Of a stretch of 26,284 nt of DNA, positions 289 to 16,024 are shown piece after piece (positions within the stretch are counted from its first letter, which is position 1; every line of letters starts with the position of its first letter). Source of the DNA: a virus. The position numbers were made by a program, and so were the translations under genes. The DNA lies in IMG/VR virus record IMGVR_UViG_3300009526_001889, positions 1 to 26,284 of that record; one strand, 5' to 3'. The notes beneath the pieces are model-generated. The model did no database searches and was not told the origin of the DNA. It saw only the letters and a list, made by a program, of their open reading frames with translations.

Positions 289-320
289 TATTTATATGGG
301 GGTTAGCAATCAAATGTCAA
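289..320 (-). promoter_or_regulatory. Composite early/late promoter of hsp20
   Basis: Reading the minus strand, TTGACA (320-315) is followed after 18 nt by TATAAATA (296-289). TATAAATA is the exact T4 late promoter box read by gp55, and its first six bases also serve as a good sigma70 -10 (TATAAA). The start codon of hsp20 is 55 nt downstream. One site could therefore serve both host RNA polymerase early and gp55-polymerase late. The sequence match is direct; dual use is inference. Confidence 0.65.
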
Positions 321-325
321 CCCCC
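298..325. repeat. 7-bp inverted repeat overlapping the hsp20 -35 box
   Basis: GGGGGTT (298-304) and AACCCCC (319-325) form a perfect inverted repeat separated by 14 nt. The right arm and adjacent loop contain the -35 box, and the left arm abuts the -10 box, so it sits exactly in the promoter spacer. It could be an operator for a repressor, or a stem in a read-through transcript. G-runs like this are unusual in such an AT-rich genome. Confidence 0.5.
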
Positions 326-343
326 ACACAAAAACTTTTTTTA

Positions 344-451
344 TTAACCTTCATCTTGAACTATTTTAATAGCTTTTTCCCAAGCCTCTTCATAAGAATA
401 CCCTTCGGCTTCTAACTCTTCGGCTATTTCGTAATATCTATTATAGTCCAT
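344..451 (-). CDS. Hypothetical 35-aa acidic helical protein
   Basis: A 35-codon ORF starting MDYNRYYEIAEELEAEG and ending IVQDEG. Its ATG at 451 lies inside the 3' end of the cobS gene (11-nt overlap) and is preceded by GAGG about 9 nt upstream, so it is well placed for translational coupling. The protein is acidic and likely one or two amphipathic helices. No family is recognised. Support comes from the ribosome binding site, the tight overlap and a plausible composition; it may still be a chance ORF. Confidence 0.5.
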   Translation of the reverse strand: MDYNRYYEIAEELEAEGYSYEEAWEKAIKIVQDEG

Positions 452-1622
452 TTGATTCATCCTCTTCATCTTGAACAATTTCATCTGACTGTTCAGGTTC
501 TGAAATATCAATACCTGCATCAATCTTAGAATAAAGATTTAAGAAAGAATCTTTAGTGTCATCATCAAATCTGGCGACACATAACTCAACTGCTTTCTTT
601 TTATCTGAAAAGATTGCATATGCCTTGACAATGTGGTCAAGTCTTCTGGTAGAGATGATTTCATCAATCCCACCTTCGAAAAAGGTCTTTCTAATAACCT
701 CTGCCCAAGTACATAGATTTTCAGCAAACGCCTCATCTATCTTACCATACTTTTTCATAGAACCAAGAATAATCTTTTCTTCTACTTTTTTTGCGGCATA
801 TGGTTGTTCAATAGTAATGGCAAATCTTTCTAAGAATGCTTCGTTTAAAACATTCGTTCCAATAAATCTACCATCCTCTGAACCCTTACCTTTAGTATTG
901 GCAGTGGCCATAACGTTAAATCCTTGTTTTGGTGTAACCCACTTATTTACTTTTTTCAAGTAAACGCCTTTTCCTTCAAGGACAGGTTGTAAACACATAA
1001 GTTTATTAGAACCTAAATCACACTCATCCAATAGAAGAGTACATCCTCTTTCCATTGCATCGATGACTGGGCCAGGTACAAACTTGGTCTCGCCGTTAAC
1101 AAGTCTGAAACCACCGAGTAAATCGTCCTCATCAGTTTCGATTGTAATGTTAACTCTGATTAAGTCTTTTTTCATTTCGGCATGAATTTGCTCAATCATT
1201 AAAGTCTTACCGTTACCAGATAGACCAGTAACAAACACTGGGTAAAACATATCAGACTTTGAAATCTGTTTAATTGTATTGTAGTGACCCCAAGGTACAA
1301 ATCCCTCAAACTTCGAAGGTACCAAATTTTGAACATCAATTGATTTCGCCATTAAGTTTACACTTGTCGGTGAAGGTGCATCTACAGGTTGATTAATAAT
1401 TGGTTGAACTGATTGCACAACCTCCTCGACTGATTTATCACCAGACGTTGGTAATTGATACTTACCATGACCACATTTGAATTGTGGTTTCTTTAACCAA
1501 GAAGGGTTTTGAAAACCATTCTTTTCTGCGAAATCGTTGATTTCAAATCTAGTAACTACGGCAGCATCGCCGTACTCTTTAGACATCGCAATCACGAACT
1601 CTTGTTTTTTAGGTGTTAACAT
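441..1622 (-). CDS. cobS: CobS-like MoxR-family AAA+ ATPase
   Basis: A 393-aa AAA+ ATPase of the type labelled CobS in T4-like marine phages. An N-terminal part of about 100 residues contains a small Cys/Trp-bearing domain (residues 25-55). The ATPase core has Walker A GLSGNGKT (133-140), Walker B LLLDECD (196-202), a sensor region ATANTKGKGSEDGRF (239-253) and an arginine-finger candidate in LERF (264-267). The C-terminus is acidic. True CobS is the ATPase of aerobic cobaltochelatase, but no CobN-like subunit is present here. The gene lies just downstream of a VWA protein, the usual AAA+/VWA pairing of MoxR systems, so protein remodelling is at least as likely as cobalamin synthesis. The ATG at 1622 has GAGAGG upstream. 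Confidence 0.88.
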   Translation of the reverse strand: MLTPKKQEFVIAMSKEYGDAAVVTRFEINDFAEKNGFQNPSWLKKPQFKCGHGKYQLPTSGDKSVEEVVQSVQPIINQPVDAPSPTSVNLMAKSIDVQNLVPSKFEGFVPWGHYNTIKQISKSDMFYPVFVTGLSGNGKTLMIEQIHAEMKKDLIRVNITIETDEDDLLGGFRLVNGETKFVPGPVIDAMERGCTLLLDECDLGSNKLMCLQPVLEGKGVYLKKVNKWVTPKQGFNVMATANTKGKGSEDGRFIGTNVLNEAFLERFAITIEQPYAAKKVEEKIILGSMKKYGKIDEAFAENLCTWAEVIRKTFFEGGIDEIISTRRLDHIVKAYAIFSDKKKAVELCVARFDDDTKDSFLNLYSKIDAGIDISEPEQSDEIVQDEEDESNGL

Positions 1623-1656
1623 TATAAAGTCCTCTCTTTAATTATCATCTATTATT

Positions 1657-1686
1657 AGAATATCAGGTAAATCTTGTTATTGTCAA
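1657..1686 (-). promoter_or_regulatory. Candidate sigma70-type early promoter for cobS
   Basis: TTGACA (1686-1681) followed after 18 nt by TATTCT (1662-1657) on the minus strand, 35 nt upstream of the cobS ATG. The -35 is perfect and the -10 is weak. It lies in the short gap between the VWA gene and cobS. Confidence 0.45.
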
Positions 1687-1694
1687 GGCCTAAA

Positions 1695-3944
1695 TTAGGC
1701 AATGTTTTCAATGAATTTGTTAAGTAATTGACGATTTAGTGTCTTTTTTGTGGCGTGTTTAAGGAATTCACGGGCCATTCCGGCAGATTTCATATTCTCT
1801 TTAAACTCATAATCAGATGATTCTTGAACATTTTCACCTCTAGGCAAAATATAAAATTCATCATATCCAGCAACTTTGCAAACTGACACTTTATCTTTTG
1901 ATAATTGTCTTTGAATTTTTGCAATTTGAGCATGGTCACTATCACTGTATTGATTTAAATGATATGCATTACAAATAACATTTAAAGGAACTTTTCCCTT
2001 TTTACCTGAACCTGCAATGAAGAAACCTAAAACAGAAATATTAGGTAATTGTTTTCTAAGTAATTGTAAATATGTTTTTGTTTGTTCAGAACCATACATT
2101 GCGCCACTAACTACTGTTGCACCAGTCTCTGGGCAAGTAATATGAACATCTTTACTACCAACTGAGTATGAACCATGTGGTTGTAAATAATCTTCACCAG
2201 AAGCACCAGAACTATCAGACCACCACTCACTATGAGTATGACTTTCACCATCTGTCAAATAAACAAGATTTAATTTTTGAACTTTGTTTTCTGACATAAA
2301 CTTTTTAGTAGTTTTGTAAGTAGTTATGATTGCTTGATTAAGTGGTGTGCCACCAAGATTGAATCTACTAGGTATCCATGTACTATTAACATAACCATAT
2401 TCGTCTTCTAAATCAGAATAACTCCATTGATAAGTCATTGAAAGTAATTCTTTCATCATCCACATGGTTTCTTGTTTAGTCATTTTATTAGTAAAGAACT
2501 CAAATAAATTAAAACGACCAAAAGTTAAATCATTACGTACCTTGTCTTGTACTTCTTCGTGGTCATTATTTGTATTATATTTGTATCTATCTGAAAAGGC
2601 AAAAACTTGAAAAGGAATTTTTACTCTTTGGCAAAACCAAATTAAGTTGTAAAGTTGAATAAGTGTAAATCTCATATTACCTGCCATTGAACCTGACCAA
2701 TCAAGATACATAATCATACCGTGATTAGTAGAACCGGGTATCGTAGTAATCTTTGCGAATAAATCTTCATTGTATCGATAACTATGGAGTTTAGTCATAT
2801 CAAGACTACCTGTCTTTGAAACAGTGGCTCTTTTGTATGCATCAGCAGACTTTTTCATTTCAAACTCTTTAACCATATACTGAACAACTTTTTTGTTTTC
2901 ATTAAAGATTTTATCCATTTCTTTTTGAACTGCGTTATCAAAACTCTTACTATGATTGATAGTATAGTCTTCTTTGAGTTCTTGCATAATTCTTTTATAT
3001 GATAAAGTAATTTTTGACATTTTAAGACTTTTAGGAATATTTAAGTACATACGGTCTTTTGCTTTTTCATCAATATGTGCTTTCATGGCATCATCATAAG
3101 CACTATCGGTAACTGATTTTAAATCACCATTAGTAGGGGCACCACCTTTTGAAGCAGTAGTTGATTGTTGACTTTCTTGTTCTTCACCTTCGTCACCTTT
3201 ATCTTGGTCACTTGTTTGAGTACCGTTAGAACTTTCTTCATCATCATCTTGAGATTTTGACTTGGATGAACTATCTTCACCTTCCTCGCCATCGTCTGAG
3301 CCATCGTCTGAGTTTTTTTGTTGTTGATTTTGTTGTTCACCATCATCGTCTTCTTTATCTACACCTGACATTGATTGTTGAGCATTATTATCTTGATTTT
3401 CTTTTTCTTGTTTTTCGTGAAACTCACAAAGTTTTGCCGCAAGACTAATTACATCTTCTGGTGTTTTACATTTTGAAACTTCTTCGATAAGTAATTTTTC
3501 TTCTGGTGAAACATCACCAAGAAGACCTGTCTTGTAAAAGATATTAATTTTATCAATGATATTAAGTTTTGAGATATCTTTATTATCTATACCAAAGAAA
3601 TTTTTCTTTAATAACTCTTTATAACCTTTTTGAAAGTTTTTAACAGAACCGGGGTATTTCTTTTGAAACATTTTTTCGATACGTGCATCTTCGATTACGT
3701 TAACAACACCATGGTCAATACCTTGATGATGAATTGCATCTAACATATCTAGAGGTGTATATAATGCATGACCAACTTCATGACAAACGAACATGTCATA
3801 AACATCGTTACTCATTTCTTCTTTGAAAATTGGTAAAACTAATTCTCTTGATTTAACATCAAAAGAAGCAGTCTGTGCTTTTTTGTGAACAACGTAAACG
3901 TTTTCTTCAGCAAGTAGTTTCGCAATAGTAGATTTTTTAGTCAT
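1695..3944 (-). CDS. cobT: CobT/NorD-like VWA protein with HEVGH zincin-like motif
   Basis: A 749-aa protein in three parts. The N-terminal domain has HEVGH (55-59) followed by NVIEDARIE (82-90); HExxH plus a downstream Glu-rich helix resembles a gluzincin metalloprotease site, while EDARIE is also typical of CobT/NorD proteins. A low-complexity acidic linker (about 180-265, rich in D, E, S, Q) follows. The C-terminal VWA domain has a full MIDAS: DWSGS (415-419), Thr in GGTPL (531-535) and TDGES (564-568). It is upstream of the CobS-like AAA+ ATPase, with which such proteins normally work as a metal-dependent substrate adaptor. The ATG has GAGG upstream. Calling it a cobaltochelatase subunit is the usual label; the HExxH suggests it may be or derive from a protease. 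Confidence 0.8.
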   Translation of the reverse strand: MTKKSTIAKLLAEENVYVVHKKAQTASFDVKSRELVLPIFKEEMSNDVYDMFVCHEVGHALYTPLDMLDAIHHQGIDHGVVNVIEDARIEKMFQKKYPGSVKNFQKGYKELLKKNFFGIDNKDISKLNIIDKINIFYKTGLLGDVSPEEKLLIEEVSKCKTPEDVISLAAKLCEFHEKQEKENQDNNAQQSMSGVDKEDDDGEQQNQQQKNSDDGSDDGEEGEDSSSKSKSQDDDEESSNGTQTSDQDKGDEGEEQESQQSTTASKGGAPTNGDLKSVTDSAYDDAMKAHIDEKAKDRMYLNIPKSLKMSKITLSYKRIMQELKEDYTINHSKSFDNAVQKEMDKIFNENKKVVQYMVKEFEMKKSADAYKRATVSKTGSLDMTKLHSYRYNEDLFAKITTIPGSTNHGMIMYLDWSGSMAGNMRFTLIQLYNLIWFCQRVKIPFQVFAFSDRYKYNTNNDHEEVQDKVRNDLTFGRFNLFEFFTNKMTKQETMWMMKELLSMTYQWSYSDLEDEYGYVNSTWIPSRFNLGGTPLNQAIITTYKTTKKFMSENKVQKLNLVYLTDGESHTHSEWWSDSSGASGEDYLQPHGSYSVGSKDVHITCPETGATVVSGAMYGSEQTKTYLQLLRKQLPNISVLGFFIAGSGKKGKVPLNVICNAYHLNQYSDSDHAQIAKIQRQLSKDKVSVCKVAGYDEFYILPRGENVQESSDYEFKENMKSAGMAREFLKHATKKTLNRQLLNKFIENIA

Positions 3945-3971
3945 TTGAATACCTCATCATCATCTATAGTT

Positions 3972-4001
3972 ATAATGACAGGCATTCGGGCCATTTGTCA
4001 A
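3972..4001 (-). promoter_or_regulatory. Candidate sigma70-type promoter for the VWA gene
   Basis: TTGACA (4001-3996), 18 nt, then CATTAT (3977-3972) on the minus strand, in the gap upstream of the VWA protein. The perfect -35 matches those before cobS, uvsY and hsp20; the -10 is imperfect, with TATAAC a little further down as an alternative. Confidence 0.4.
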
Positions 4002-4011
4002 GGGTTAAAAA

Positions 4012-5157
4012 TTAAAGGTGGTCGTTACCGTAATTCTTCCATATGTCAAAAACCTCAATATTTTCGGGCGTTTCATCACTTGGCCAAGATTTGAACAATA
4101 TGTCGCACCCTGTTTTTGCGTTGATTTTTACTATTTTTCCACCTAATTCTTTAATATAGTGTTGGATTAATAGGATATAACTGCCGTCTTCGTTCTTAAC
4201 ACCCTCTTTAAACCCTGTACTAGTAAATGCAACTTTAAGTGGTTGAACCTTACCTGACGGGTCTTGAAGCACTCTTCTTGCGACTGCTTCTGCTTGTTTT
4301 TCTCTGACAATCATTGTGTTGCCAAAATAATCATAAGTCATGTCTAATTTCTTAGTCAACCAACTTAATGCAATATTATCTCTAGGGTGACAACTTCCAC
4401 CATCACCTAAACCTGGTTTCATGTATTTTGGACTTATTAATCTATGAGTACACTTTGACAGTACATCGCAAACAAAATTTGCATCTGCATTTTTCATTTT
4501 ATCTGCTGCATGTTGAATCATGTTTACAAAGTTAATTTTTTGAGTAATGAAAGTATTATAGAATACTTTAATCATTTCTGCTTCTTTAAAGTTACATATT
4601 TGAATTCTTGGATTGTTTTCTGCGATTGTCTTATAGAAATCGATTAATATCTTTGGTCTATAATTTGGTCTTTCGCCATTTGAACCATCTCCACCATTTC
4701 TGTCTGCACCAATTACAAACAACTCAGGATTTTTGAAATCCCATGCAACGGTTCCTTGTGCTATGAAAAATGGACTATAAACAAAATCGGCATCTGTTAT
4801 AAGGTCTCTAAGTTTATTATCAATTGTCGTAGGTATTACATTTGAAATAAGAACAATCAATTGTGGTTTCTTTACGAACTTATTTAATTCAGATAGTGTT
4901 TCTTCAACTGCTGAATAATCGAAATCTTTTGCTGGTAAATCAGAGGTAGGAGTTTCTCCTCCATAACCATCTTCATGTGGTGTTGGTACTGAAACAAAGA
5001 TAATTTCTCTATCACTTATTGCTTCAAACAAATTTTTACGACAAATCGCAAGATTACTTACTTTTGGGTCGTACCCTGTTACATCGTGACCTTTTTCATA
5101 CGCCACATCACTGCATGGCTTTACTAGTTTTCCTAAACCAACAAATCCTACTTTCAT
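4012..5157 (-). CDS. UDP-glucose/GDP-mannose 6-dehydrogenase family protein
   Basis: A 381-aa protein of the nucleotide-sugar dehydrogenase family, which oxidises C6 of an NDP-sugar to a uronate with two NAD+. The N-terminal Rossmann domain opens MKVGFVGLGKLVKP, giving GxG but Val where the third glycine usually lies. SVPTP (56-60) follows. The central helix has KEAEMIKVFYNTF (191-203), carrying the conserved Lys and Asn. The active-site segment MKPGLGDGGSCHPRD (246-260) contains the catalytic Cys256. At 381 residues it is a little shorter than the usual 390-450, with a reduced C-terminal domain. It ends the accessory block and has its own AGGAG site. The substrate cannot be told from sequence. 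Confidence 0.85.
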   Translation of the reverse strand: MKVGFVGLGKLVKPCSDVAYEKGHDVTGYDPKVSNLAICRKNLFEAISDREIIFVSVPTPHEDGYGGETPTSDLPAKDFDYSAVEETLSELNKFVKKPQLIVLISNVIPTTIDNKLRDLITDADFVYSPFFIAQGTVAWDFKNPELFVIGADRNGGDGSNGERPNYRPKILIDFYKTIAENNPRIQICNFKEAEMIKVFYNTFITQKINFVNMIQHAADKMKNADANFVCDVLSKCTHRLISPKYMKPGLGDGGSCHPRDNIALSWLTKKLDMTYDYFGNTMIVREKQAEAVARRVLQDPSGKVQPLKVAFTSTGFKEGVKNEDGSYILLIQHYIKELGGKIVKINAKTGCDILFKSWPSDETPENIEVFDIWKNYGNDHL

Positions 5158-5192
5158 TTTAATACTCCTATTTCTTTAAATTAATTCTATAT

Positions 5193-5198
5193 ATTATA
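5193..5198 (-). promoter_or_regulatory. Possible -10 box upstream of the NDP-sugar dehydrogenase
   Basis: The 65-nt gap before the gene contains TATAAT within an alternating AT stretch, 35 nt from the ATG. No good -35 is visible at the right distance, so this is a weak candidate. It is the only gap in the chain from gp55 to this gene, which makes a separate promoter plausible. Confidence 0.28.
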
Positions 5199-5222
5199 TA
5201 TACGTGCTTATTTAGTCTTTCT

Positions 5223-6026
5223 TTATAGTGCAATATCAAGTTCTTTATAGATAAATTTCATAATATTTCTTTGAGATTCAGCATTTGGATGTGCATCTAT
5301 TCCACTAATTCTTTCATATTGACCTGCTCGTTCTAAAAAGTTTATCAGATGAAATCCACCTAATTCATTAAAACACGGCCATCCCATAAATGTATCTTCT
5401 TTTATCTGTAAAGATAATGGGTTCTTTATTAATTGTTCCATAGATTCTTTTTTAAACAACTTTGCTTCTTTATCATGTTCAAAGTAATTTGACATAGGAT
5501 TTAACATTTGAAACATTTGTAATTTTATATTTCTAGATTCGCAAATACATTGTAATGAATAAAACAATTGTAAATTCTTATTAATAATTTGTTTAGGTGT
5601 TGGATACTCACTAGAAAAAGTATTTAGATACCATTGATTTAAATATTCGTAATCAAAAACTTCTCTATCAAGTTTTTTATCTATCACATCTTTTCGTCTT
5701 GGTACAAGTGTTCTCCATTCAGGACCTCTTCCTTCGGACGGAAAGGGTCCAATACAGCAATCATCTTTATGTTTAATCATAAAATCTTGTCTTGTCCACT
5801 CTGTCCAACCAACTATTACATAATCAATTTTATCGTGTTTAGATATTTCAGAAACAACTCTATTAAAGATTATTTCGTTTCCAATACCACATATTGCAAG
5901 ATTGATAACATTAGTATTTGTTTTTTCAGAAAGTAACTCTGGCCACATTTTAAATTCAAGAGGCATTGGTTGTGCTGACTTTGGTTGTTCTTTATCTGTA
6001 AAACTGCAACCACCTACAATAATCAT
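5223..6026 (-). CDS. SGNH/GDSL-like protein, copy 1
   Basis: A 267-aa protein with an SGNH-hydrolase-like layout. Block I is GGCSFT with the nucleophile candidate Ser8 (Cys replaces the usual Asp of GDS). NLAICGIGNE (42-51) fits blocks II/III, VIVGWTEWTRQ follows, and DAHP (244-247) supplies the block V Asp-His pair. Members of this superfamily remove or add acyl groups, often on glycans; the exact activity is not predictable. It overlaps the upstream paralogue by an ATGA, so the pair is translationally coupled, and AGGAA lies upstream of the ATG. With a carbamoyltransferase and a sugar dehydrogenase beside it, a role in glycan decoration is the best inference. Confidence 0.65.
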   Translation of the reverse strand: MIIVGGCSFTDKEQPKSAQPMPLEFKMWPELLSEKTNTNVINLAICGIGNEIIFNRVVSEISKHDKIDYVIVGWTEWTRQDFMIKHKDDCCIGPFPSEGRGPEWRTLVPRRKDVIDKKLDREVFDYEYLNQWYLNTFSSEYPTPKQIINKNLQLFYSLQCICESRNIKLQMFQMLNPMSNYFEHDKEAKLFKKESMEQLIKNPLSLQIKEDTFMGWPCFNELGGFHLINFLERAGQYERISGIDAHPNAESQRNIMKFIYKELDIAL

Positions 6027-6733
6027 ATGTTATTTCCTAATATTTTTGCAAATTCTTTATGTGCTTTTGAAGTTGGATGAGCATCTGATGTATGATAAGA
6101 CTTATCATTTTTTTTGTTCCATGATTGAAGAGAAAATCCACCAACTTCTTTCATAAAAGGAAACCCTATTAAAGTACCATTATCCACAGTATCAAATCTA
6201 GGATGATTCATAACATGTTTGATGAACTCCATGTCATCAAAAATATTTGGTAAAGGATTTAATGCTGCAAAAATTTTATATGGTATTCCTATTTTTTCTA
6301 AAACAGATTGCATAGTTATAATTTGAGTATAAAATTTATATACCATTTTTTTAGTTCTAGGGTCGTAGTCTCTTATCATTTTTCCATTTAAAAGATTTCT
6401 TGTTATTTCCGTCATACCAATAACAACTAGACCATCTTTACTAAATGATAACAAATCATAATCGTCAATAATCTTTTGTATAATATGTTCATTTGAAGTA
6501 CCATCTTGCCCATGATTAACAACAGGTGTTTCTAATATTTCACCAAGATATTCTGGCCAACATTTTTGTATAACTCTTACATAGTTTGTAATATTACGTA
6601 ATTCGCCCAATCGTGGTATTTCAGTATCCTCATCAAAAATTGTTTGTGACAGAGAACTAACTGCTACATCAGTTTCATATTCATAGTGTGTAAAACTACA
6701 ACCATATGTAAATAATCTAGAATACTTTGACAT
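6023..6733 (-). CDS. SGNH/GDSL-like protein, copy 2
   Basis: A 236-aa paralogue of the next gene. It begins MSKYSRLFTYGCSFTHYEYE with candidate Ser13, then has NHGQDGTSNEHIIQ, VVIGMTEITRN and DAHPTSKAHKEFA (Asp217, His219), so the same SGNH elements appear in the same order. The ATG at 6733 was chosen because AAAGGAA lies 7 nt upstream; an in-frame TTG at 6748 has no such site. The 5' end overlaps the carbamoyltransferase by 17 nt. Retention of both catalytic-type positions in the two copies suggests both are active. No signal peptide is visible, so it likely acts in the cytoplasm. Confidence 0.65.
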   Translation of the reverse strand: MSKYSRLFTYGCSFTHYEYETDVAVSSLSQTIFDEDTEIPRLGELRNITNYVRVIQKCWPEYLGEILETPVVNHGQDGTSNEHIIQKIIDDYDLLSFSKDGLVVIGMTEITRNLLNGKMIRDYDPRTKKMVYKFYTQIITMQSVLEKIGIPYKIFAALNPLPNIFDDMEFIKHVMNHPRFDTVDNGTLIGFPFMKEVGGFSLQSWNKKNDKSYHTSDAHPTSKAHKEFAKILGNNI

Positions 6734-8039
6734 TATATTTCCTTTCAAAATTTAACGCATCTGACCATGTATTAACTATTGGTTGTCCTTTAATATTCAA
6801 AGAAGTGTTTAAAAGCATTGGACAACCTGTTTTAGCATAGAATTCTTCCAATATAAGGCGGGCTACAGAGGTATTTGTTTGTTCTACGACTTGTACTCTG
6901 GCAGTACCATCAATATGCGTTACTGAACTATAATCATGCATTGCTTTTGATACAAACTGCATATATCTATTCTTTCGTCCTTTAAAGTAGTCATCAAAAT
7001 GCTCCTCTAAAATCATAGGTGCAAACGGACGATATTTCTGTCTTTGTTTAATAGTATTAACTGTATCCTTTACATTGTATCTAGGGTCTGCAATTAATGA
7101 ACGATTACCTAATGCTCTTGGGCCAAACTCTGCACGACCATTAGCAATACCACAATACTTGTGTTTTAATAAATGTTCAACAACTTCTTTTGGGTTAACA
7201 TACTGATTAATATTATAACCAAGATACGGATGTTCCCAATCCAATCTTATACCATTAACTAATGCAGCTGCTCCTAACGATGAACCTGCATCACCAGGTG
7301 AAGGCATAATCCATATGTTATAATAATCTAAAAGTTTACTATTGGCAACACAATTTAAAGCACATCCACCTGCTAGTATTAAATTTTTCTTTGTTGTGTA
7401 TCTTAACAATTCTTTTAATTTTGTTTCATACAAATTCTGAATTGATGCAGCCAAATCTTCAGGTCTTGCATTTGGTAAAATGTTACCAACACCTCTGTGA
7501 TTATTTTGTTCTAACAAATATTCTAAATCGTATTTGGGTTCACCGAATGCAGCCATACCCATAGTAATATATTCTTCTTCATTTGGTTTCAATCCTAATC
7601 TTTGTGTAATCGCTGAATATAGTAATCCAAGTGAATAAGGATACCTAAATGATTTTATTTTTTTCATATTATCCCAAATGGTAATTGTTTCCCATTCACC
7701 TATGGCATCTATGACAATAATATTACAATCATGAAAAGGCGCCGTTAAATAACCTGCGGCTGCATGAGTTTGATGATGTCTAAAATAATAATCATATTTT
7801 CTTTCAGGCCATTCCATACCTTGACCTGCAAAAACTCTTCTAGTGTTTTTCCAAAATGGTGATTCGTAATATGCAATGTTATCGTAAGTGTGAGGTAATT
7901 GTTTTAATGATATCCATTTATCATTTTTAACTCGACTGTATCTTTCACTATGCGATGCATGTAAAATCTTTTTTCCTTCTAACACAGTTACACCTGCATC
8001 ATGAAATCCCTCTGATACACCGACATTAATCATCTTCAT
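6717..8039 (-). CDS. O-carbamoyltransferase of the NodU/CmcH/TobZ family
   Basis: A 440-aa enzyme expected to move a carbamoyl group from carbamoyl phosphate, through an adenylate, to a hydroxyl on a sugar or other acceptor. The Kae1-like N-domain has FRHHQTHAAAGYLTAPF (86-102, metal-binding His candidates), GGCALNCVANSKL (224-236) and PSPGDAGSSLGAA (246-258). The C-domain has GRAEFGPRALGNRSLIADPR (301-320), KYRPFAPMI (335-343) and LNTSLNIKGQPIV (410-422). All family signature blocks are present, although the protein is shorter than TobZ/NodU (about 560). It overlaps both neighbours. Some phage members carbamoylate 5-hydroxymethylcytosine in DNA, so the acceptor could be DNA as well as glycan. 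Family is sure, acceptor unknown. Confidence 0.93.
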   Translation of the reverse strand: MKMINVGVSEGFHDAGVTVLEGKKILHASHSERYSRVKNDKWISLKQLPHTYDNIAYYESPFWKNTRRVFAGQGMEWPERKYDYYFRHHQTHAAAGYLTAPFHDCNIIVIDAIGEWETITIWDNMKKIKSFRYPYSLGLLYSAITQRLGLKPNEEEYITMGMAAFGEPKYDLEYLLEQNNHRGVGNILPNARPEDLAASIQNLYETKLKELLRYTTKKNLILAGGCALNCVANSKLLDYYNIWIMPSPGDAGSSLGAAALVNGIRLDWEHPYLGYNINQYVNPKEVVEHLLKHKYCGIANGRAEFGPRALGNRSLIADPRYNVKDTVNTIKQRQKYRPFAPMILEEHFDDYFKGRKNRYMQFVSKAMHDYSSVTHIDGTARVQVVEQTNTSVARLILEEFYAKTGCPMLLNTSLNIKGQPIVNTWSDALNFERKYNVKVF

Positions 8040-8358
8040 TTACCGTACAATATTTTTTACATTTGTAATAAGCATCATCATAGTTTTCCCATGATTGAGG
8101 TAGTGTTTCATCAAACCACTTTCCCTTGAGTATTTTACTTAAAGGGTTTTTGTATATATTGTACTCATCTTTATTGTCCATATACTTTTTCATGATATGT
8201 TTATTTTTTGATTCTTTTCCTTTATACAATTCCTCAATGTCTGTATTATCAAACTTGTATGCCATGTTACTTAAATAACAACATGGAAAAACTTGTCCGT
8301 CTGGGTTAACAATAACAAGTTCATCGTTTTTCCATTCACAACTAATACACTTACTCAT
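8026..8358 (-). CDS. SPASM-like iron-sulfur protein (split partner of radical SAM)
   Basis: A 110-aa cysteine-rich protein. CISC (residues 4-7), the segment VNPDGQVFPCCYLSN (18-32) and a C-terminal CKKYC follow the usual SPASM/twitch pattern, a domain that normally forms the C-terminal end of radical SAM enzymes and binds an auxiliary 4Fe-4S cluster. Here it is a separate gene, starting in an ATGA overlap with the stop of the radical SAM gene. Its 3' end overlaps the carbamoyltransferase by 14 nt. Either the enzyme works as two chains or a frameshift broke one gene; the clean overlap favours two chains. Confidence 0.75.
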   Translation of the reverse strand: MSKCISCEWKNDELVIVNPDGQVFPCCYLSNMAYKFDNTDIEELYKGKESKNKHIMKKYMDNKDEYNIYKNPLSKILKGKWFDETLPQSWENYDDAYYKCKKYCTVNEDD

Positions 8359-9008
8359 TTTCGTAAAACCTTTTCTTTTCCATTTTCATCAACAAATTCA
8401 AATGTATCACTTTCTCTAAATCTATTAGAATCAAAATGACGCCAATATTTTGCACCATTGTCTTTTGCAAGATTTTCAATCTCTTTAAGATAAGGTCGAT
8501 TGTGTTCAAAGACAACTGTTTGTGCCATTGGTGTTGACCATGTTTCAGATAGTGATTTCATATTACTTAATGTTTTTTCTAAATTAGTTTTTCTACGATA
8601 GTGACTATGCATCTCTTGATTGACACCATCAATATCAAAATACATTTTTAATCTCTTGCCACATAGTATACCAAGTTTCCAATAATAATCCTCATCTCTG
8701 ATAGAACCATTTGTTGTGATTTCTATTCTACAATTACTTTCATCAATAATATATTCACACATAGGATACAAATCTTTAAGCATCATTGGGTCACCCCAAG
8801 TTCCACAGAATTTAATTTCATCTAACTCTTCTAATGTTTCTTTTGGAAATGCTTTTTTAAAATCTTCTATTGACCACTGTACAAGTGGCAACCATTCAGC
8901 AGTTCCACAACCATTTGGATTAATTCTGTCGCATTGAGGACAACCTGCATTGCAAAAATTAGTTATTGATAAACTAATCTTTCTTATTGGTGTTTCGTTC
9001 CACTTCAT
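8355..9008 (-). CDS. Radical SAM protein lacking its own SPASM domain
   Basis: A 217-aa radical SAM enzyme. SITNFCNAGCPQCDR holds the CxxxCxxC cluster motif (Cys19, Cys23, Cys26). EIKFCGTWGDPMM takes the place of the usual GGEP strand, followed by EITTNGS and FDIDG, all typical of the partial TIM barrel. The start at 9008 was chosen because GAGG lies 7 nt upstream; an ATG 24 nt earlier at 9032 is weaker. The protein ends where SPASM normally follows, and a SPASM protein begins in a 4-nt overlap. The substrate is unknown; its neighbours suggest modification of a sugar or small molecule rather than peptide maturation, as no precursor peptide is evident apart from the tiny ORF upstream. Confidence 0.85.
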   Translation of the reverse strand: MKWNETPIRKISLSITNFCNAGCPQCDRINPNGCGTAEWLPLVQWSIEDFKKAFPKETLEELDEIKFCGTWGDPMMLKDLYPMCEYIIDESNCRIEITTNGSIRDEDYYWKLGILCGKRLKMYFDIDGVNQEMHSHYRRKTNLEKTLSNMKSLSETWSTPMAQTVVFEHNRPYLKEIENLAKDNGAKYWRHFDSNRFRESDTFEFVDENGKEKVLRK

Positions 9009-9117
9009 GTTTATCCTCGTAAATATATACATCAGACTTTTCTCTAGGTTTAAAGTAACCTAAAAAAGTATTCCAATATAATAAAGTATATAATTTTATT
9101 CTTTTAAGTTTTTTCAT
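8974..9117 (-). CDS. Hypothetical 47-aa basic protein downstream of gp46
   Basis: A 47-codon ORF starting MKKLKRIKLYTLLYWNTFLG and containing YFKPREKSDVYIYEDKHEVE. Its ATG overlaps the gp46 stop as ATGA, the same arrangement seen at other junctions of this operon, and its 3' end overlaps the radical SAM gene by 35 nt. The N-terminus is basic and hydrophobic, the C-terminus charged. No family is recognised. Its position directly before a radical SAM/SPASM pair makes a substrate peptide formally possible, but nothing in it looks like a known precursor. Confidence 0.6.
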   Translation of the reverse strand: MKKLKRIKLYTLLYWNTFLGYFKPREKSDVYIYEDKHEVERNTNKKD

Positions 9118-10847
9118 GTTATTGCACTGTAACTGTTATTGTAATTAACTCTACTAAAGTTTTGTACTTTTTCAAACTTAATACTATTACTAAATTTATC
9201 TGCAAGTTGGTCACCTTTATGACTAATTACAAATATGTTTTCATTGTCTAGTGTGTTTAGTATTCTTAGAAACTCATCTGTACCTTGGCCATCTAATGAA
9301 CTGTCAAATATCTCATCTAGAATTAATAGATTTGTATTTGTTGAATTTTTCATTTTAGCAATTGCTCTCCAAGTAAACAATAATGCTAAATCAATTCTTA
9401 GTTTTTCACCTTCACTAAATGAAGCATAGTTAAAGTTATCTCTAAATCTAGACTTAATCGTTTCATTAAAATTTTCATCTAAATTAAAGTTTACATAAAA
9501 CTCCATAGACATAAGATACTTATTAATTAACTGATTCATAATTGGCAAGTATTGTTTAATAATTTTTGTTTTAATACCTGAATCATCTAACATATCTCTG
9601 ACTGCATGGGTATATGTTTTTTCTTCCTTCTTTTCACTTCTTGTTTGTTCAACACCTTTACATTCGTTTTTCATATTAGAAAGTTTATCTAAGTCTGTTT
9701 GTGATACTGAACCTTTTTCAAATGATGATATTTCATCTGATAATCTATTATTATACTTTTCTAATTCAGTAATTGCTGAAGTTAACTCTGCCCTTTGAAC
9801 TTCATTATCACGAATTTTTTTCATTATCGCATCAATGTCTTCTATTCGTTTATCAACTTCAAGAAGCTCATCTTTAAGTTTTGTTGCTCCGTCAAGTATA
9901 TCTTGTATTTTATTTTGTTTGTCTTCTACCATTGTCTCTTTATGAGATGTTTCAATATCTTGTTCACAGGTAGGACAACTTTCATTGTCTTTAAAAAACT
10001 CCATATCTTTTGTTAACTGTTTATGTTTTTCTGTTATTGTTGCTCTAATGTTACTTAACTTTTTTAATTTGTTTGTAACTTTATCTTTATCAGTAATACT
10101 TTCGTGTAAGTCATCTGAAACTGTTTTTAAATCATCGACTTGAGTATTTCTTTCATTTAATACAGTTTCATTTTTGCTAAACTCATTTTCTTTTTCAGAA
10201 ACAATTTGTTCTTTGTTTGCTTTCATGTCATCAATATAATTTTGTTGCATAGCAATTTTTTCACAAGCAAGTTCAAACTGATAATCTAAATCTTTTATAT
10301 CATCTGTTATTTCTTTAATCTTTTGTTTAAGTAAAAACCCCATAAGAGAAAATATTTTAATATCAAGAATTTCTTCAACAACTTCTCTACGATGACTTGC
10401 CTTTAATTGCATAAAAGGAATAAATGTCGATGAACCTAAAATAACAACCTGAGTAAATGAACGGAAGTTTAATCGTAATACATTTTGTTCTAAAAACTTT
10501 TGATAGTCTCTAGAGTTTGCATCTTGATTAACAAGAAGATTGTCACAATAGATTTCAAATATATTTGGTTTAATACCTCTTATGATTTTCCACTCTTTAG
10601 TACCTATACTAAATTCTACTTCGACAACTGCTTCTCTATCATTAATAGTATTAACTAATTGTGATTTACTAATAACACGAAATGGTTTACCAAATAAACC
10701 AAAACACAATGCATCAAGAATAGTTGATTTGCCTGCACCATTTTCACCAATGATTAATGATGTTCTATTTTCGTCTAATTTTATTTCTGTAAATTGATTA
10801 CCTGTAGAAAGAAAGTTTTTCCAACGAACACAATTAAAATTAATCAT
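9114..10847 (-). CDS. gp46: gp46 recombination nuclease ATPase subunit (Rad50/SbcC-like)
   Basis: A 577-aa SMC-type ATPase that with gp47 forms the T4 end-resection nuclease needed for recombination-dependent replication and host DNA breakdown. Walker A GENGAGKS is at 34-41, followed by FGLFGKPFR as in T4. Long coiled coils flank a zinc hook CPTC (291-294). The signature FSEGEKLRIDLALLF and Walker B LLILDEIFDSSLD lie near the C-terminus. The start at 10847 matches the T4 start of the ATPase domain and has GGAG upstream; the frame is open for 39 further codons, but those lie in the membrane-protein gene. Both ends use ATGA overlaps. Confidence 0.95.
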   Translation of the reverse strand: MINFNCVRWKNFLSTGNQFTEIKLDENRTSLIIGENGAGKSTILDALCFGLFGKPFRVISKSQLVNTINDREAVVEVEFSIGTKEWKIIRGIKPNIFEIYCDNLLVNQDANSRDYQKFLEQNVLRLNFRSFTQVVILGSSTFIPFMQLKASHRREVVEEILDIKIFSLMGFLLKQKIKEITDDIKDLDYQFELACEKIAMQQNYIDDMKANKEQIVSEKENEFSKNETVLNERNTQVDDLKTVSDDLHESITDKDKVTNKLKKLSNIRATITEKHKQLTKDMEFFKDNESCPTCEQDIETSHKETMVEDKQNKIQDILDGATKLKDELLEVDKRIEDIDAIMKKIRDNEVQRAELTSAITELEKYNNRLSDEISSFEKGSVSQTDLDKLSNMKNECKGVEQTRSEKKEEKTYTHAVRDMLDDSGIKTKIIKQYLPIMNQLINKYLMSMEFYVNFNLDENFNETIKSRFRDNFNYASFSEGEKLRIDLALLFTWRAIAKMKNSTNTNLLILDEIFDSSLDGQGTDEFLRILNTLDNENIFVISHKGDQLADKFSNSIKFEKVQNFSRVNYNNSYSAIT

Positions 10848-11119
10848 ATAAACAATCTCCAAAGAGCAATAGTATTCATTGTAGTAAACCATACAGTTAG
10901 TACCATAATCCAAGCAGATTTTCTGTAATATGCTCCAAAGAAACCACTTACACTTCCTACCCAATAAAATGGCATAAAGATATCTGGTCTTGGTTCTAAT
11001 ACTGTAAATGTTAATATTGCACTACCAATCATAACACTAAATGCACTTAGCATTTCTAGATAAAATGCTGTCACGTTTGTTTTGTAACTATCAATCCAAA
11101 AGTTTCTAACTCTGTTCAT
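10844..11119 (-). CDS. Small three-helix membrane protein between gp47 and gp46
   Basis: A 91-aa protein with three predicted membrane spans: about 17-41 (ending in SAILTFTVL), 47-65 (FMPFYWVGSVSGFFGAYY) and 69-90 (AWIMVLTVWFTTMNTIALW). It overlaps gp47 and gp46 by ATGA at each end, so it is made in step with the nuclease subunits. No family is recognised. The position suggests a link to the nuclease or to membrane attachment of replication, but this rests on context only. Confidence 0.8.
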   Translation of the reverse strand: MNRVRNFWIDSYKTNVTAFYLEMLSAFSVMIGSAILTFTVLEPRPDIFMPFYWVGSVSGFFGAYYRKSAWIMVLTVWFTTMNTIALWRLFI

Positions 11120-12177
11120 AATTCTAAATCCTGAGCTTCGTTGTATAAGCCACGCATTATTCTTTTTAGTCTATCCTTATCAAGAGTAATGTCTAATTCA
11201 TCAACATATTTGTTTAATAATGTAGTTGTATCTTCAGCATGTTTTACAATATCATCTGGTACAGTATCAGCATGTAAATCTGAAAAGTCTTCGATAACTT
11301 TTACTTCATGACAGTTTGCTTTCATTAGTCTTTCCATAAATCTATCAAACTGATATAAATCTTTTTTGTTTACTACAACTAACTTAACAAACTTGTTTTT
11401 GTATTGAGACACATCATGATTTTCATACATTGTATTAGTATCATCATAAAAAATCTTTTCATGCATTCTGATAGGGTTTACTATTCTTTCTAACTCTAAA
11501 GTTTCAGTATCAAATATATGAAATCCTTTTGTGTCATTGTAATCAGACCAAGTTATTTCATAGGGTGCGCCTAAATAGTAAATTTGACCATCATCTGATT
11601 TATGATGAAAGTGGCCAGAAAACACAGTATCAAATTTTTTAAACATTTCTTTATCATGACCATGGTCACTTACAATTCCCTTATTCATTTGAAAACCTTT
11701 TATTTCTAAATGCCCCATAGCAATATTTGCCTTTGATTCTAGAATTATTCCTTCAGCATAAATTGAGTTTTGAGAATTAATCCATGGCAAAAATAAAATA
11801 TCTAATCCGTCAAAATTAACTTCCGTTGCATCTTCATAAATGTGAATATGTTTTGACTTACCATCAATTAATTCTCTTAATGAATTAACATCATTTGTGT
11901 TCTTAAAAAATATATCATGATTACCAACAAGACAATGAAAGTTTATTTTTAAATGTTGTATTGGAAATAGAAATCTTTCTCTAAATTCTTTTGCAGTTTT
12001 AAAAGAAACATATTTACGTCTATCCATTAAGTCTCCTAAATGAATAACATTTTTAATATTATGTTTTTCTAAGTAAGGAAAAAATATACCCTCATAAAAT
12101 GAAAGCATATAATCTAAAAAGAAAGTATTATCGTTCCTTGCACCAAAATGAGTATCGGTGATTAGAGCGACTTTCAT
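11116..12177 (-). CDS. gp47: gp47 recombination nuclease subunit (Mre11/SbcD-like)
   Basis: A 353-aa metallophosphoesterase nuclease, partner of gp46. The metal-binding motifs appear in order: DTHFG (8-12), HLGDLMDRR, GNHD, GHLE and GHFHHK. Length is close to T4 gp47 (339). The gene starts in an ATGA overlap with gp55 and ends in another with the membrane-protein gene. Linking the late sigma factor and the recombination nuclease in one transcript matches the T4 link between replication and late transcription. Confidence 0.95.
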   Translation of the reverse strand: MKVALITDTHFGARNDNTFFLDYMLSFYEGIFFPYLEKHNIKNVIHLGDLMDRRKYVSFKTAKEFRERFLFPIQHLKINFHCLVGNHDIFFKNTNDVNSLRELIDGKSKHIHIYEDATEVNFDGLDILFLPWINSQNSIYAEGIILESKANIAMGHLEIKGFQMNKGIVSDHGHDKEMFKKFDTVFSGHFHHKSDDGQIYYLGAPYEITWSDYNDTKGFHIFDTETLELERIVNPIRMHEKIFYDDTNTMYENHDVSQYKNKFVKLVVVNKKDLYQFDRFMERLMKANCHEVKVIEDFSDLHADTVPDDIVKHAEDTTTLLNKYVDELDITLDKDRLKRIMRGLYNEAQDLEL

Positions 12178-12719
12178 TTTTTAGGTTCTTCCATAAAATT
12201 CTCTAAACCTGCTGGAGTTTTTTCTTCCTTTTCTTTTTCTTTTGTTTTGTACACAGGTTCACTAGGTAACATAATTGTAGCATCAAATCCATGAATACTA
12301 TAATTTGTAGTGTCTATTGGCATAACAACATGTGTACGATACTCTTCGTTTTCAATAATCTTATGTTTGATATGAGTTTGTTTTTTTTCTTTTTGTATCC
12401 TTCTAACAAAAGCATAATAGATTATTTGTGTAAAATACGCAAAAGGATTTTTTGATTTCTCAGGATTAAAGTTGTAAATATATTGGAGACAGTTTTCGAT
12501 ACCATCTGAAATCATTTCGTCTCTGTAAGTGTAATTAATAAAGTTTGGTCTATAAGATAAACCATTTGCAATTTTTAAGAAACACTCTCCTATGTAATGA
12601 GGTACTAGTGGCATTCGTTCGCCAACACCTTCTGCTTCTTTGCATTTCTCTTTGAACTTTTGCATTTCTTCAAAAAGTTTTTTGTTGTCAACGTAATGAA
12701 CTGAATTTTTTTTCTTCAC
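12174..12719 (-). CDS. gp55: gp55 late-transcription sigma factor
   Basis: A 181-aa homologue of T4 gp55 (185 aa), which directs host RNA polymerase to TATAAATA late promoters. The core has PHYIGECFLKIANGL, RDEMISDGIENCLQYI and NPEKSKNPFAYFTQI, matching the conserved sigma region 2-like part, followed by FVRRIQKEKKQ. The start codon is GTG at 12719, with AAGGA about 9 nt upstream; no in-frame ATG gives a full-length protein. Eight matching late boxes elsewhere in the window are its expected targets. A stem-loop lies just upstream. Confidence 0.94.
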   Translation of the reverse strand: MKKKNSVHYVDNKKLFEEMQKFKEKCKEAEGVGERMPLVPHYIGECFLKIANGLSYRPNFINYTYRDEMISDGIENCLQYIYNFNPEKSKNPFAYFTQIIYYAFVRRIQKEKKQTHIKHKIIENEEYRTHVVMPIDTTNYSIHGFDATIMLPSEPVYKTKEKEKEEKTPAGLENFMEEPKK

Positions 12720-12739
12720 AAGTCACATCCTTTTTCACT

Positions 12740-12760
12740 GACGCCGTATTGCACGGCGCC
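12740..12760 (-). other. Stem-loop in the gp55 leader
   Basis: On the minus strand GGCGCCGT and ACGGCGTC form an 8-bp stem (one G-U pair) around GCAAT. On the plus strand the G-U becomes an A-C mismatch, so the structure favours minus-strand RNA. No U-run follows, so it is not a standard terminator. It stands 20 nt before the gp55 GTG and could be a processing site or stabiliser. Its high GC stands out locally. Confidence 0.55.
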
Positions 12761-12777
12761 ATACTTAATTATAATTG

Positions 12778-13089
12778 TTAATTGCCGAATTCGTCTTTTG
12801 CGATGCTTTCATTAACATCATCTTCGTCATCGTAATTGTATTCTTCTTCGTTTTCCGTTTCTTCACCCCAACTAGCACCTGCTGGTGGAATTATTTCATC
12901 TTCGTCATATGCGTCTACTGGCACATTAATTAGTTGTATAACTTCTTCAAGTTTATCTTCTAGAGTATCAAGTCTTACTTCAAGTTCATCTCTTAGTTCT
13001 TCAACTGCTTCTAGATGTTCTTCACTTTCCTCAAGAGCTTGTATTCTCTCTTCTAACTCTTCTAACTTATTTTTATCTTCGTCTGCCAT
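12778..13089 (-). CDS. Acidic coiled-coil protein of unknown function
   Basis: A 103-aa, very acidic protein. Residues 1-55 have heptad-like Leu spacing (LEELEERIQALEESEEHLE and on), predicting a coiled coil. A Pro/Gly hinge (IIPPAGASWGEE) leads to an acidic tail that ends KDEFGN. The ATG has AGGAG upstream. It sits just ahead of gp55. An accessory factor for late transcription would fit the position, but I cannot match it to T4 gp33. Confidence 0.7.
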   Translation of the reverse strand: MADEDKNKLEELEERIQALEESEEHLEAVEELRDELEVRLDTLEDKLEEVIQLINVPVDAYDEDEIIPPAGASWGEETENEEEYNYDDEDDVNESIAKDEFGN

Positions 13090-13101
13090 TTTGTACTCCT
13101 A

Positions 13102-13130
13102 TTTTTATCATAGTTGACACACAATGTCAA
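13102..13130 (-). promoter_or_regulatory. Possible promoter for the acidic-protein/gp55 unit
   Basis: TTGACA (13130-13125) on the minus strand with an A/T-rich GATAAAAAT stretch 15-18 nt downstream as a loose -10, about 15 nt before the gene's AGGAG. The -35 is perfect, the -10 uncertain. Confidence 0.35.
13114..13130. repeat. Inverted repeat TTGACA-5-TGTCAA
   Basis: TTGACA (13114-13119) and TGTCAA (13125-13130) form a perfect 6-bp inverted repeat with a 5-nt spacer, so a -35-like hexamer appears on each strand. It may be an operator or simply back-to-back promoter elements. Confidence 0.45.
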
Positions 13131-13154
13131 GGTAATAAAAAATAAATTTAACCC

Positions 13155-13182
13155 TTGACATTTACACTTTTGCTCGTATAAT
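13155..13182 (+). promoter_or_regulatory. Perfect-hexamer sigma70 promoter facing antisense
   Basis: On the plus strand TTGACA (13155-13160), a 16-nt spacer and TATAAT (13177-13182), preceded by an A/T-rich stretch like an UP element. It points into the 3' end of the minus-strand gene at 13205-13630, and no plus-strand gene follows. If used, it would make an antisense or small RNA. Hexamer identity is direct; activity is inferred. Confidence 0.5.
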
Positions 13183-13204
13183 AGGTTAATGTACCTGTTT
13201 GAGT

Positions 13205-13630: not shown

Positions 13631-15063
13631 ATTTTTACCTCATCTATCCTATATGAGAAACTTTCCTCATTGTATATATTTATTCTTTCTTCAAAGTGTC
13701 TTAGTGTAAAATTCTTCTTAGTTTTGTATGTAAAATCATCGCATATATCCCATATTAGAACGGAACTTTTAGTGTTGGATTTACGCAACCCACGTCCAAT
13801 CGATTGTAACACTCGTATTCTACTTTTACTTGGACTTGCGAACACGATATTGTTAAGGTTAGGAATATTAATACCAGTGCTAAAAGTGCCATAAGACGCA
13901 ACAATAATAGAATTATCTGATAAATTGACATTTTCTCTTATCTTTTCTCTTTCTTCAGCGCTTGTTCCACCATACACGTAATAGGTATTATCACCTTTTA
14001 ACATATCGTATAGTATATTACCATGTTTCTCTACTAGTTGAAATAAACATAATGTATTACCTTCTAGTGTTTTACATAAATTGACAATAAAATTATTTCT
14101 TCTAGTATGACCTGCAAGATAACTTATCTCTTCAGCATATGTATAATCTTTAATTTGTTTACATTCTTCTTCTTTATGTTTTAAAACAACACAGTTTGTT
14201 GTTAATTGTGCAAGTGTTTTATCATCCATTAATTCTTTTGTAGTAGTTACTTTTTCTACTTTACCAAATAAACCTTCTAGAACTAATCGATGGGTTTGTG
14301 TACCATCAAGTGTACCTGTAAATCCGAAACGATAAGGACATTGCTGTAACTTTTCCATAATACCAGTTAAAGATTTTGCTTTAAACGTGTGTGCTTCATC
14401 GCCAAAGATACATTCATATTGTTTAAAATAATTCTTTTGCAATTTATATAAAGATTGCCAAGTTGATATGACAACAGGCTTATCTGATTCTTTATCATGA
14501 CCAGAATAAACTTTATGTATTTTATCTTCTTTCCAACCATAAGAAATAAAATCGCTTGTCATTTGTTCTACTAAAGAGGTTGTCGGTACTAATATTAATA
14601 TTTTTTTATTCATCATACTATAATAACGAACTAAACAATAAATGATAAATGATTTACCAGATGCAGTTGGACTTACAAACAATCTTCTAGAATTTTCTAT
14701 CGCAGTACAAATTGCATTGAATTGGTAATCTCTTGTTTCAAATGGTATCTTTAATGCATTAATAAAACCTTGAACATCTTCTACATTAACAGGCTTTACA
14801 TTTGAGTTAACACCCTCATGAAGAACATATTCTAAATTATTGTTTTTTAAAAAGTCTTCTAGGTAAGATAACAACCCTACATAAATCATACTTGTCTTTT
14901 GTGAAAATAAACGTATCTTACCATCCCACATTCTATTACGAAATGTTGGCATGAATTTAGCACCAGGCACTTCGAATTCAAAAAATGTACTTAGTTCTCT
15001 TGCAACATGTTGTTCGCATTCAACCATTAAATGTACATCGTTTATTTTGTGAATAAAAATCAT
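13627..15063 (-). CDS. uvsW: UvsW RNA-DNA and DNA helicase
   Basis: A 478-aa superfamily 2 helicase like T4 UvsW (about 500 aa), which unwinds R-loops and branched DNA and shifts replication from origin-initiated to recombination-driven mode. The N-terminal domain has RNRMWDGKIRLF (42-53), as in T4. Helicase motifs: Walker A SPTASGKS (131-138), GDEAH (221-225), FTGT (248-251) and the motif VI arginine segment QSIGRGLRKS. It begins in an ATGA overlap with the methyltransferase and ends in one with the Sm-like gene. Confidence 0.94.
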   Translation of the reverse strand: MIFIHKINDVHLMVECEQHVARELSTFFEFEVPGAKFMPTFRNRMWDGKIRLFSQKTSMIYVGLLSYLEDFLKNNNLEYVLHEGVNSNVKPVNVEDVQGFINALKIPFETRDYQFNAICTAIENSRRLFVSPTASGKSFIIYCLVRYYSMMNKKILILVPTTSLVEQMTSDFISYGWKEDKIHKVYSGHDKESDKPVVISTWQSLYKLQKNYFKQYECIFGDEAHTFKAKSLTGIMEKLQQCPYRFGFTGTLDGTQTHRLVLEGLFGKVEKVTTTKELMDDKTLAQLTTNCVVLKHKEEECKQIKDYTYAEEISYLAGHTRRNNFIVNLCKTLEGNTLCLFQLVEKHGNILYDMLKGDNTYYVYGGTSAEEREKIRENVNLSDNSIIVASYGTFSTGINIPNLNNIVFASPSKSRIRVLQSIGRGLRKSNTKSSVLIWDICDDFTYKTKKNFTLRHFEERINIYNEESFSYRIDEVKI

Positions 15064-15575
15064 GACTTTTTTAATGCAACTAAATTGTTTTGTTTATCAT
15101 ACAATGTGGCCATATCTAAATCTACCATAGAATCAACAAACTTTTCAACACCTGGTGTATTGTAATCGTGATATAAAATTAAACCATTATCAACAACATT
15201 GTTCCAATACGATAATGAATCTCTACGAACTGAAGTAAATGTGTGGTCACCATCAATTAATAACATTTCAAAATTAACTTTTTCTAAGTTATATTCATGT
15301 GAGTTTGCTTGAATAAAAGTAAGTCTTTCAAGATAGTCTTTTGGTATATAATCATAGTAATCTTTTAATTTATCTTTTAAGTCTATGGAATAAACTTTTC
15401 TATCTGTATCTTTTGTTGCATCTAAGAAAGCAAAAGTAGAACCACCCATACCTATTTCTAGAATATCACCCTCGGTGCTTTCAACCATTTTATAGAGAAA
15501 CTCTATCTCTTCGTTTCTCATTTGTTGAATATCATTAAACCATTCCGGCTTCAAATTTTTTCCATTCAATAGCAT
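15060..15575 (-). CDS. Class I SAM-dependent methyltransferase (Methyltransf_24-like)
   Basis: A 171-aa Rossmann-fold methyltransferase. Motif I is DILEIGMGGST (37-47), followed by an acidic strand end in VYSIDLKD. LLIDGDHTFTSVRRD (105-119) and LILYHDY (132-138) are typical of the Methyltransf_24 group, whose members often act on sugars or small molecules. It lies between uvsY and uvsW, overlapping uvsY by 41 nt and uvsW by ATGA. The ATG at 15575 is preceded by AGAGG at a long spacing; Met19 (15521) is an alternative start that reduces the overlap. The substrate is unknown. Confidence 0.78.
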   Translation of the reverse strand: MLLNGKNLKPEWFNDIQQMRNEEIEFLYKMVESTEGDILEIGMGGSTFAFLDATKDTDRKVYSIDLKDKLKDYYDYIPKDYLERLTFIQANSHEYNLEKVNFEMLLIDGDHTFTSVRRDSLSYWNNVVDNGLILYHDYNTPGVEKFVDSMVDLDMATLYDKQNNLVALKKS

Positions 15576-16017: not shown

Positions 16018-16024
16018 GGGTTAT

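Follow-up and report, generated by a model that had tools for sequence, protein, structure and literature searches.

Many genes related to sugars, their use unproven, are found in the phages that infect the dominant streamlined bacteria of the sea. In one T4-like virus a run of putative modification genes lies on the minus strand inside the gp46-gp47-gp55-UvsW block, between gp46 and a CobT/VWA-like peptidase gene, and raises the question of whether these genes form a unit and, if so, what it modifies. The window, meaning the whole stretch of DNA analysed, is a virus record of 26,284 bases that carries T4-like core genes. Its major capsid protein is 73% identical to that of Methylophilales phage Melnitz and 70-73% identical to those of Pelagibacter phages Mosig and HTVC008M; its gp46 shares 57% identity with Melnitz gp46. 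Related phages can be grown on Methylophilales H5P1 or Pelagibacter HTCC1062. The reading that we prefer, with about even confidence, is a modular cassette for tailoring a glycan precursor, probably of the host envelope, in the cytosol during middle infection.

Table 1. Features of the cassette and its surroundings, in window coordinates
Feature	Position	Strand	Remarks
AAA ATPase (CobS-like, phrog_249)	441..1622	-	Next core gene
phrog_459 peptidase (CobT/VWA-like)	1695..3944	-	Downstream flank of insertion site
NDP-sugar dehydrogenase-like protein (phrog_9148)	4012..5157	-	UDPG_MGDP_dh central E 6e-19, N E 2.5e-12
SGNH protein 2	5223..6026	-	AlphaFold mean pLDDT 92, TesA-like fold
SGNH protein 1	6023..6733	-	GCSFT block I, DAHPT block V; ATG start
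NodU/TobZ-type O-carbamoyltransferase, compact, 440 aa	6717..8039	-	Carbam_trans_C E 1.5e-48, Carbam_trans_N E 2.3e-36
SPASM half-enzyme, 110 aa	8026..8358	-	Pfam SPASM E 1.8e-6; 4-nt overlap with radical SAM gene
Radical SAM half-enzyme, 225 aa	8355..9032	-	Alternative start 9008; Pfam Radical_SAM E 2.3e-9
Small ORF, 47 aa, first cassette gene	8974..9117	-	ATG overlaps gp46 stop; motif KLYxLLYWNTFL...FIYE[DN]
gp46 (SbcC-like)	9114..10844	-	Upstream flank of insertion site
91-aa ORF	10844..11119	-	Between gp46 and gp47
Methyltransf_24 class I methyltransferase	15060..15575	-	Between UvsW and UvsY

A first-pass annotation of the window had described six overlapping genes running in one direction from the gp46 stop. 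All six are in place and belong to the families that it named, by Pfam or, for the SGNH proteins, by fold and motifs: a radical SAM (rSAM) protein, a SPASM protein, a NodU-type carbamoyltransferase (CT), two SGNH proteins and an NDP-sugar dehydrogenase-like (UGDH-like) protein. The overlaps hold from rSAM to the second SGNH gene (SPASM/CT 14 nt, CT/SGNH1 17 nt, and 4 nt at both rSAM/SPASM and SGNH1/SGNH2) but not beyond, where a 65-nt gap precedes the dehydrogenase gene. Nor is rSAM the gene that begins on the gp46 stop; a previously unlisted 47-aa ORF starts there, and also overlaps the start of rSAM.

The site itself is well defined. In 22 of 80 relatives found through gp46, the peptidase gene starts within about 240 bases of gp46, and because these relatives have the two flanking genes adjacent, the cassette is a true insertion. 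Wherever gp46 is at least 66% identical and the sequence beyond it can be read, as in 25 relatives, cassette genes are present without exception. Since dN/dS is well below 1 for every gene (0.09-0.50, purifying selection) and the empty site exists in relatives, the arrangement is not a chance one. We also searched with narrow alignments of the small ORF and of close SGNH relatives as independent probes, and both returned the same site. The description of a co-directional modification cassette behind gp46 in a T4-like core is thus borne out by the empty site and the linkage of the genes. Other gp46 relatives carry a peptide deformylase at the gp46-peptidase site, and some carry DNA methyltransferases there; DNA-methyltransferase-like genes (N6_N4_Mtase, phrog_799, phrog_11619) lie next to the CT gene at this site at L016:8727-9995, L022:9468-10001 and L029:11271-11825.

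Linkage is strong for part of the cassette only. Of 45 CT loci that extend 3 kb or more on each side of the gene, 41 have an SGNH gene within 1 kb of it. Over a range of CT identity of 66-98%, CT, SGNH and small ORF remain together and travel as one block, and the minimal form consists of small ORF, CT and two SGNH genes (L262-L264). The core of the cassette is therefore small ORF, CT and SGNH, and the other enzymes are exchangeable: rSAM/SPASM, UGDH-like protein, c6 (a candidate glycosyltransferase), methyltransferases, 2OG-oxygenases, a DegT-type protein, a second rSAM and an amidinotransferase-like protein all occur as options. (The last, c31, was considered as a true amidinotransferase; its match, E 2e-7 overall, is mostly C-terminal, so the weaker name is used.) The linkage of all six genes that the first-pass annotation expected accordingly holds for CT and SGNH and is optional for the dehydrogenase and rSAM/SPASM; as the latter two are replaced by other tailoring genes in relatives, the data do not establish a fixed six-step pathway. 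Linkage of CT to SGNH, and of CT to a dehydrogenase, is found again at unrelated sites and in other phages. Between the window and locus L001, dS is 0.125 for SPASM, 0.053 for CT and 0.021 and 0.044 for the SGNH genes, as against 0.378 for rSAM, 0.490 for the UGDH-like gene and 0.378 for gp46, so SPASM-CT-SGNH1-SGNH2 was exchanged as one block. The site of insertion is defined, relatives with the empty site serve as controls, and the minimal form needs only three gene families, which makes the cassette a small testable unit for asking what T4-like marine phages modify. In distant loci (L059-L074), large conserved proteins of cluster c8 (442-1111 aa), which match no Pfam or PHROG family, lie near the CT gene.

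The small ORF belongs to a family of 32-64 aa found in about 50 loci, many of them overlapping extracts of the same contigs, and only alongside cassette genes. Its substitutions are mainly synonymous per site (between L005 and L012, for example, pN 0.10 and pS 0.95); it is conserved and under purifying selection. The gene that follows it may be rSAM, CT, SGNH or a methyltransferase. In L105 and L106 the small ORF occurs twice per cassette, once before SGNH and once before CT.

The rSAM and SPASM genes had been listed separately. They are adjacent in all 20 loci counted and form a single ORF at L029:4986-6077 and L064:10487-11542, and so are halves of one enzyme. The radical SAM cluster motif CX3CX2C is present, its Cys27, Cys31 and Cys34 invariant in 21 sequences; the SPASM half scores above the Pfam cut-off, with Cys26, Cys27, Cys100 and Cys104 invariant and candidates for its auxiliary-cluster set. 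Campylobacter phage CP220 (L161:7243-15862) has a cluster of rSAM genes that fit the profile of the cassette rSAM; the same cluster encodes two nucleotide-diphospho-sugar transferases and an amidinotransferase-like protein.

By both of its domains and its motifs the CT is of the NodU/TobZ type and akin to solved sugar and antibiotic O-carbamoyltransferases, and transfer to a sugar hydroxyl is predicted. It shares both Pfam domains and the conserved active-site motifs HHxxHA and GRxExGPRALGNRS with NodU, CmcH, TobZ and GdmN, but is 440 aa long rather than about 570-700, and has I/V at the W408 position.

The SGNH pair are the weakest family assignments among the six. Pfam is almost silent on them (DUF6071 at E 3e-5 for one, nothing for the other). 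An AlphaFold model of SGNH protein 2, built on a 39-sequence alignment, resembles SGNH hydrolases, E. coli TesA among them, and a profile search reaches a GDSL protein at E 9e-4. In the same alignment Ser8 (GxS, block I) and His246 (block V) are invariant. The canonical block III GxND is absent from it; W[ST]ExxR with an invariant Arg79 stands instead, and a nearly invariant Gly47/Asn50 pair lies elsewhere. We assign these proteins to the superfamily by fold, and not to a known GDSL esterase family.

The UGDH-like protein has the NAD-binding and central domains and keeps the catalytic Cys and Lys. The NPEFLxEG motif reads SPFFIAQG in the window and NPYLIA[QM]G in its phage kin, with both Glu residues lost; for this reason we file it as UGDH-like only. 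The same state, Glu pair lost with Cys and Lys kept, is found in HTVC008M, Bellamy, L007, L021, L063 and L306. By alignment the pair corresponds to E161/E165 of the human chain, and changes at E161 trap the covalent intermediate in human UGDH. Judged by these residues, the phage enzyme may not be a normal UDP-glucuronate maker and may give no uronic acid product; it may stop at the aldehyde, use another base or pass the intermediate to another nucleophile. The cassette thus points to a phage UGDH-like subfamily with an altered active site as well as to an overlooked conserved small gene. Members of phrog_9148 without the Glu pair include those at L084:16251-17396, L162:9980-11218 and L063:6677-7906.

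No T4-type late promoter (TATAAATA) was found from 297 to 16680, and sigma-70-like sites were no commoner than in shuffled sequence. Control by a late promoter in or near the cassette was therefore rejected. Because the genes overlap and this promoter is lacking, expression with the gp47-gp46 unit, and so with the middle genes, is probable. No export or membrane domain was recognised in the products, which makes the cytosol their likely place of work. From the gene content, site, linkage, selection and motifs we infer an acceptor, an order of reactions and a benefit, as follows. The enzymes would act on a nucleotide-sugar or lipid-linked glycan precursor. The CT would transfer a carbamoyl group from carbamoyl phosphate, via ATP, onto an acceptor hydroxyl; one or more SGNH enzymes would add acyl groups to the same acceptor or remove them; and rSAM-SPASM and the dehydrogenase-like enzyme would change the oxidation state of the sugar. 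The outcome would be an altered surface glycan on the infected host cell, which would mask the receptor from superinfecting phages; a virion glycan is the less likely outcome.

Several described systems bear on this. UDP-glucose dehydrogenase and glycosyltransferases to which a role in changing the O-chain was assigned are reported from pelagimyophages (PMC7029224), and such sugar genes are known more widely in T4-like marine phages (pelagimyophages and cyanophages), where CT, UDP-glucose-dehydrogenase-type, rSAM and glycosyltransferase genes are thought to alter the host surface (PMC7029224, PMC3037559). Those genes have been described chiefly from the host-recognition cluster, which lies between vrlC and gp14, or from the vicinity of hli/phoH, whereas our cassette lies elsewhere, is small, is built on a CT-SGNH-small-ORF core and has no evident glycosyltransferase. 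HTVC008M has the run methyltransferase-CT-NadE-dehydrogenase, and cyanophage Bellamy the run kinase-nucleotidyltransferase-two epimerases-glycosyltransferase-CT-NadE-methyltransferase-dehydrogenase-glycosyltransferase. In both, as here, a CT is linked to a member of the dehydrogenase subfamily that lacks the Glu pair, but the CTs are only distantly related to ours (HTVC008M 31% identity), and no SGNH or split rSAM-SPASM was detected in these runs, which have NadE-like and methyltransferase genes instead. In Mosig EXVC030M a CT, an rSAM (MoaA) and an SGNH homologue (28%) lie within about 6 kb, again with a distantly related CT, but at another site (tail-fibre/vrlC) and with an aminotransferase and nitroreductases. 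The crocagin RiPP pathway (PMC10070186) resembles the cassette in having a carbamoyltransferase, a hydrolase and a small peptide gene; no CgnB-, CgnC- or CgnE-like proteins were identified, and the likeness of the hydrolase to SGNH protein 2 is a weak one of fold. The first-pass annotation knew of no described system with this combination of genes, and in the part of the literature covered we too found neither the combination nor a description of the gp46-peptidase site, the CT-SGNH-small-ORF core, the split rSAM-SPASM or the altered dehydrogenase, although gene sets of this general kind are known in pelagiphages and cyanophages.

The glycan reading is supported by Bellamy and HTVC008M, where a CT and a same-subfamily dehydrogenase sit among sugar genes; by contig L165, where CT, SGNH, rSAM and a nucleotide-sugar epimerase occur together; and by c6, a neighbour of the UGDH-like gene in variant cassettes whose product weakly matches a GT10 fucosyltransferase-like fold. 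Against it, the c6 match is weak (E 0.03, model pLDDT 62), the window's cassette has no glycosyltransferase, the dehydrogenase lacks its catalytic Glu residues, the CTs of Bellamy and HTVC008M do not group closely with the window's CT clade, and no O-antigen cluster is evident around the bacterial CTs nearest to that clade (Streptomyces, Plantactinospora), as far as those incompletely annotated loci go. A check for sugar and hydroxymethylase genes, suggested with the first description, gave little: in 20 related fragments (20-53 kb) GT2 and GT8 families fell below cut-off, an epimerase passed in only 3, counts that incomplete sequences make weakly informative, and PF00303 (thymidylate-synthase family) was found in 0 of 24 related records, all fragments. 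Decoration of the virion, in which a capsid or tail-fibre protein would receive the carbamoylated glycan made by these enzymes, is unlikely. The Mosig CT-rSAM-SGNH set does lie near tail-fibre genes and vrlC, and c8, which directly or nearly follows the CT gene in several distant loci, could be a structural acceptor; yet c8 lacks a family match, and in the window clade the cassette lies among DNA-recombination genes, with no gene for a structural acceptor close by. Least probable of all is DNA hypermodification, in which the CT would carbamoylate a hydroxymethyl base (compare 5-carbamoyloxymethylcytosine) and the other enzymes elaborate it, giving protection against nucleases. Formation of 5cmdC from 5hmC by phage members of this CT superfamily is documented (MetaGPA, PMC8670742), replication and recombination genes adjoin the cassette, and the site holds DNA methyltransferases in some variants. 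The same work links the TobZ G421/R423 positions to modification, its text leaving the direction of change unstated (PMC8670742). By our reading of the W408-G421-R423 spacing, which assigns the columns, the window clade has G/R with DPR kept, as against C/T in Bacteroides phage BF503P1, whose CT gene is two genes upstream of a dCMP-hydroxymethylase gene, and G/T in its relative HHU4. A fully supported branch of 2.87 substitutions separates the BF503P1 and HHU4 CTs from the window clade in the CT phylogeny. DNA carbamoylation is disfavoured because the CT keeps canonical residues, which are support but not proof against a 5hmC-type enzyme, and stands far from the hydroxymethylase-linked CTs. 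A DNA-modifying CT was set aside as the leading reading on these residues, the phylogeny and the PF00303 count in fragments; of the three acceptors first proposed, host glycan and virion stay as conjectures while DNA recedes. The presence of a CT gene alone does not mark a phage as one that modifies DNA.

The small ORF invites other explanations. SPASM enzymes often have peptides as their substrates, and the ORF, conserved, present only with the cassette and overlapping the start of the next gene, might encode a precursor or carrier that is modified by rSAM-SPASM, carbamoylated by the CT and cut by an SGNH hydrolase to give a phage-made modified peptide. Crocagin biosynthesis pairs the carbamoyltransferase CgnI with the hydrolase CgnD, a weak fold match of SGNH protein 2 (PMC10070186). 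We consider this quite unlikely: the CgnD match is at E 0.056, the ORF occurs without rSAM at the site in L014, L015, L105 and L262-L264, its FIYE[DN] motif is constant whatever enzymes accompany it, the gene that follows it varies, and there is no export or peptidase partner. Very unlikely is a pathway of a new kind, in which the 32-64-aa peptide would be substrate or carrier for CT, SGNH and the optional rSAM-SPASM, oxygenase, amidinotransferase-like and methyltransferase enzymes, the altered UGDH-like subfamily diverting a Cys-bound intermediate from hydrolysis. Finally, the genes may be unrelated auxiliaries with nothing in common but a site prone to insertion. In Synechococcus phages the gp46-gp25 interval has been named as such a hot-spot (PMC3037559), other relatives have the deformylase or DNA methyltransferases at the site, and the dehydrogenase and rSAM/SPASM are separable. 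The movement of CT, SGNH and small ORF as a block and the recurrence of CT-SGNH and CT-dehydrogenase linkages at unrelated sites argue against it and make it improbable, about as much so as a decorated virion.

Other genes of the block vary as well. The 91-aa ORF contains a stretch that is hydrophobic and membrane-like, and matches no Pfam or PHROG family; it was not found in L005 or L012 and is kept in L001 and L007. In L029 the fused rSAM-SPASM gene lies between gp47 and gp46 and so marks another point of insertion next to that of the cassette. The Methyltransf_24 gene, absent in L007-L010, is another accessory gene of the same block as the cassette.
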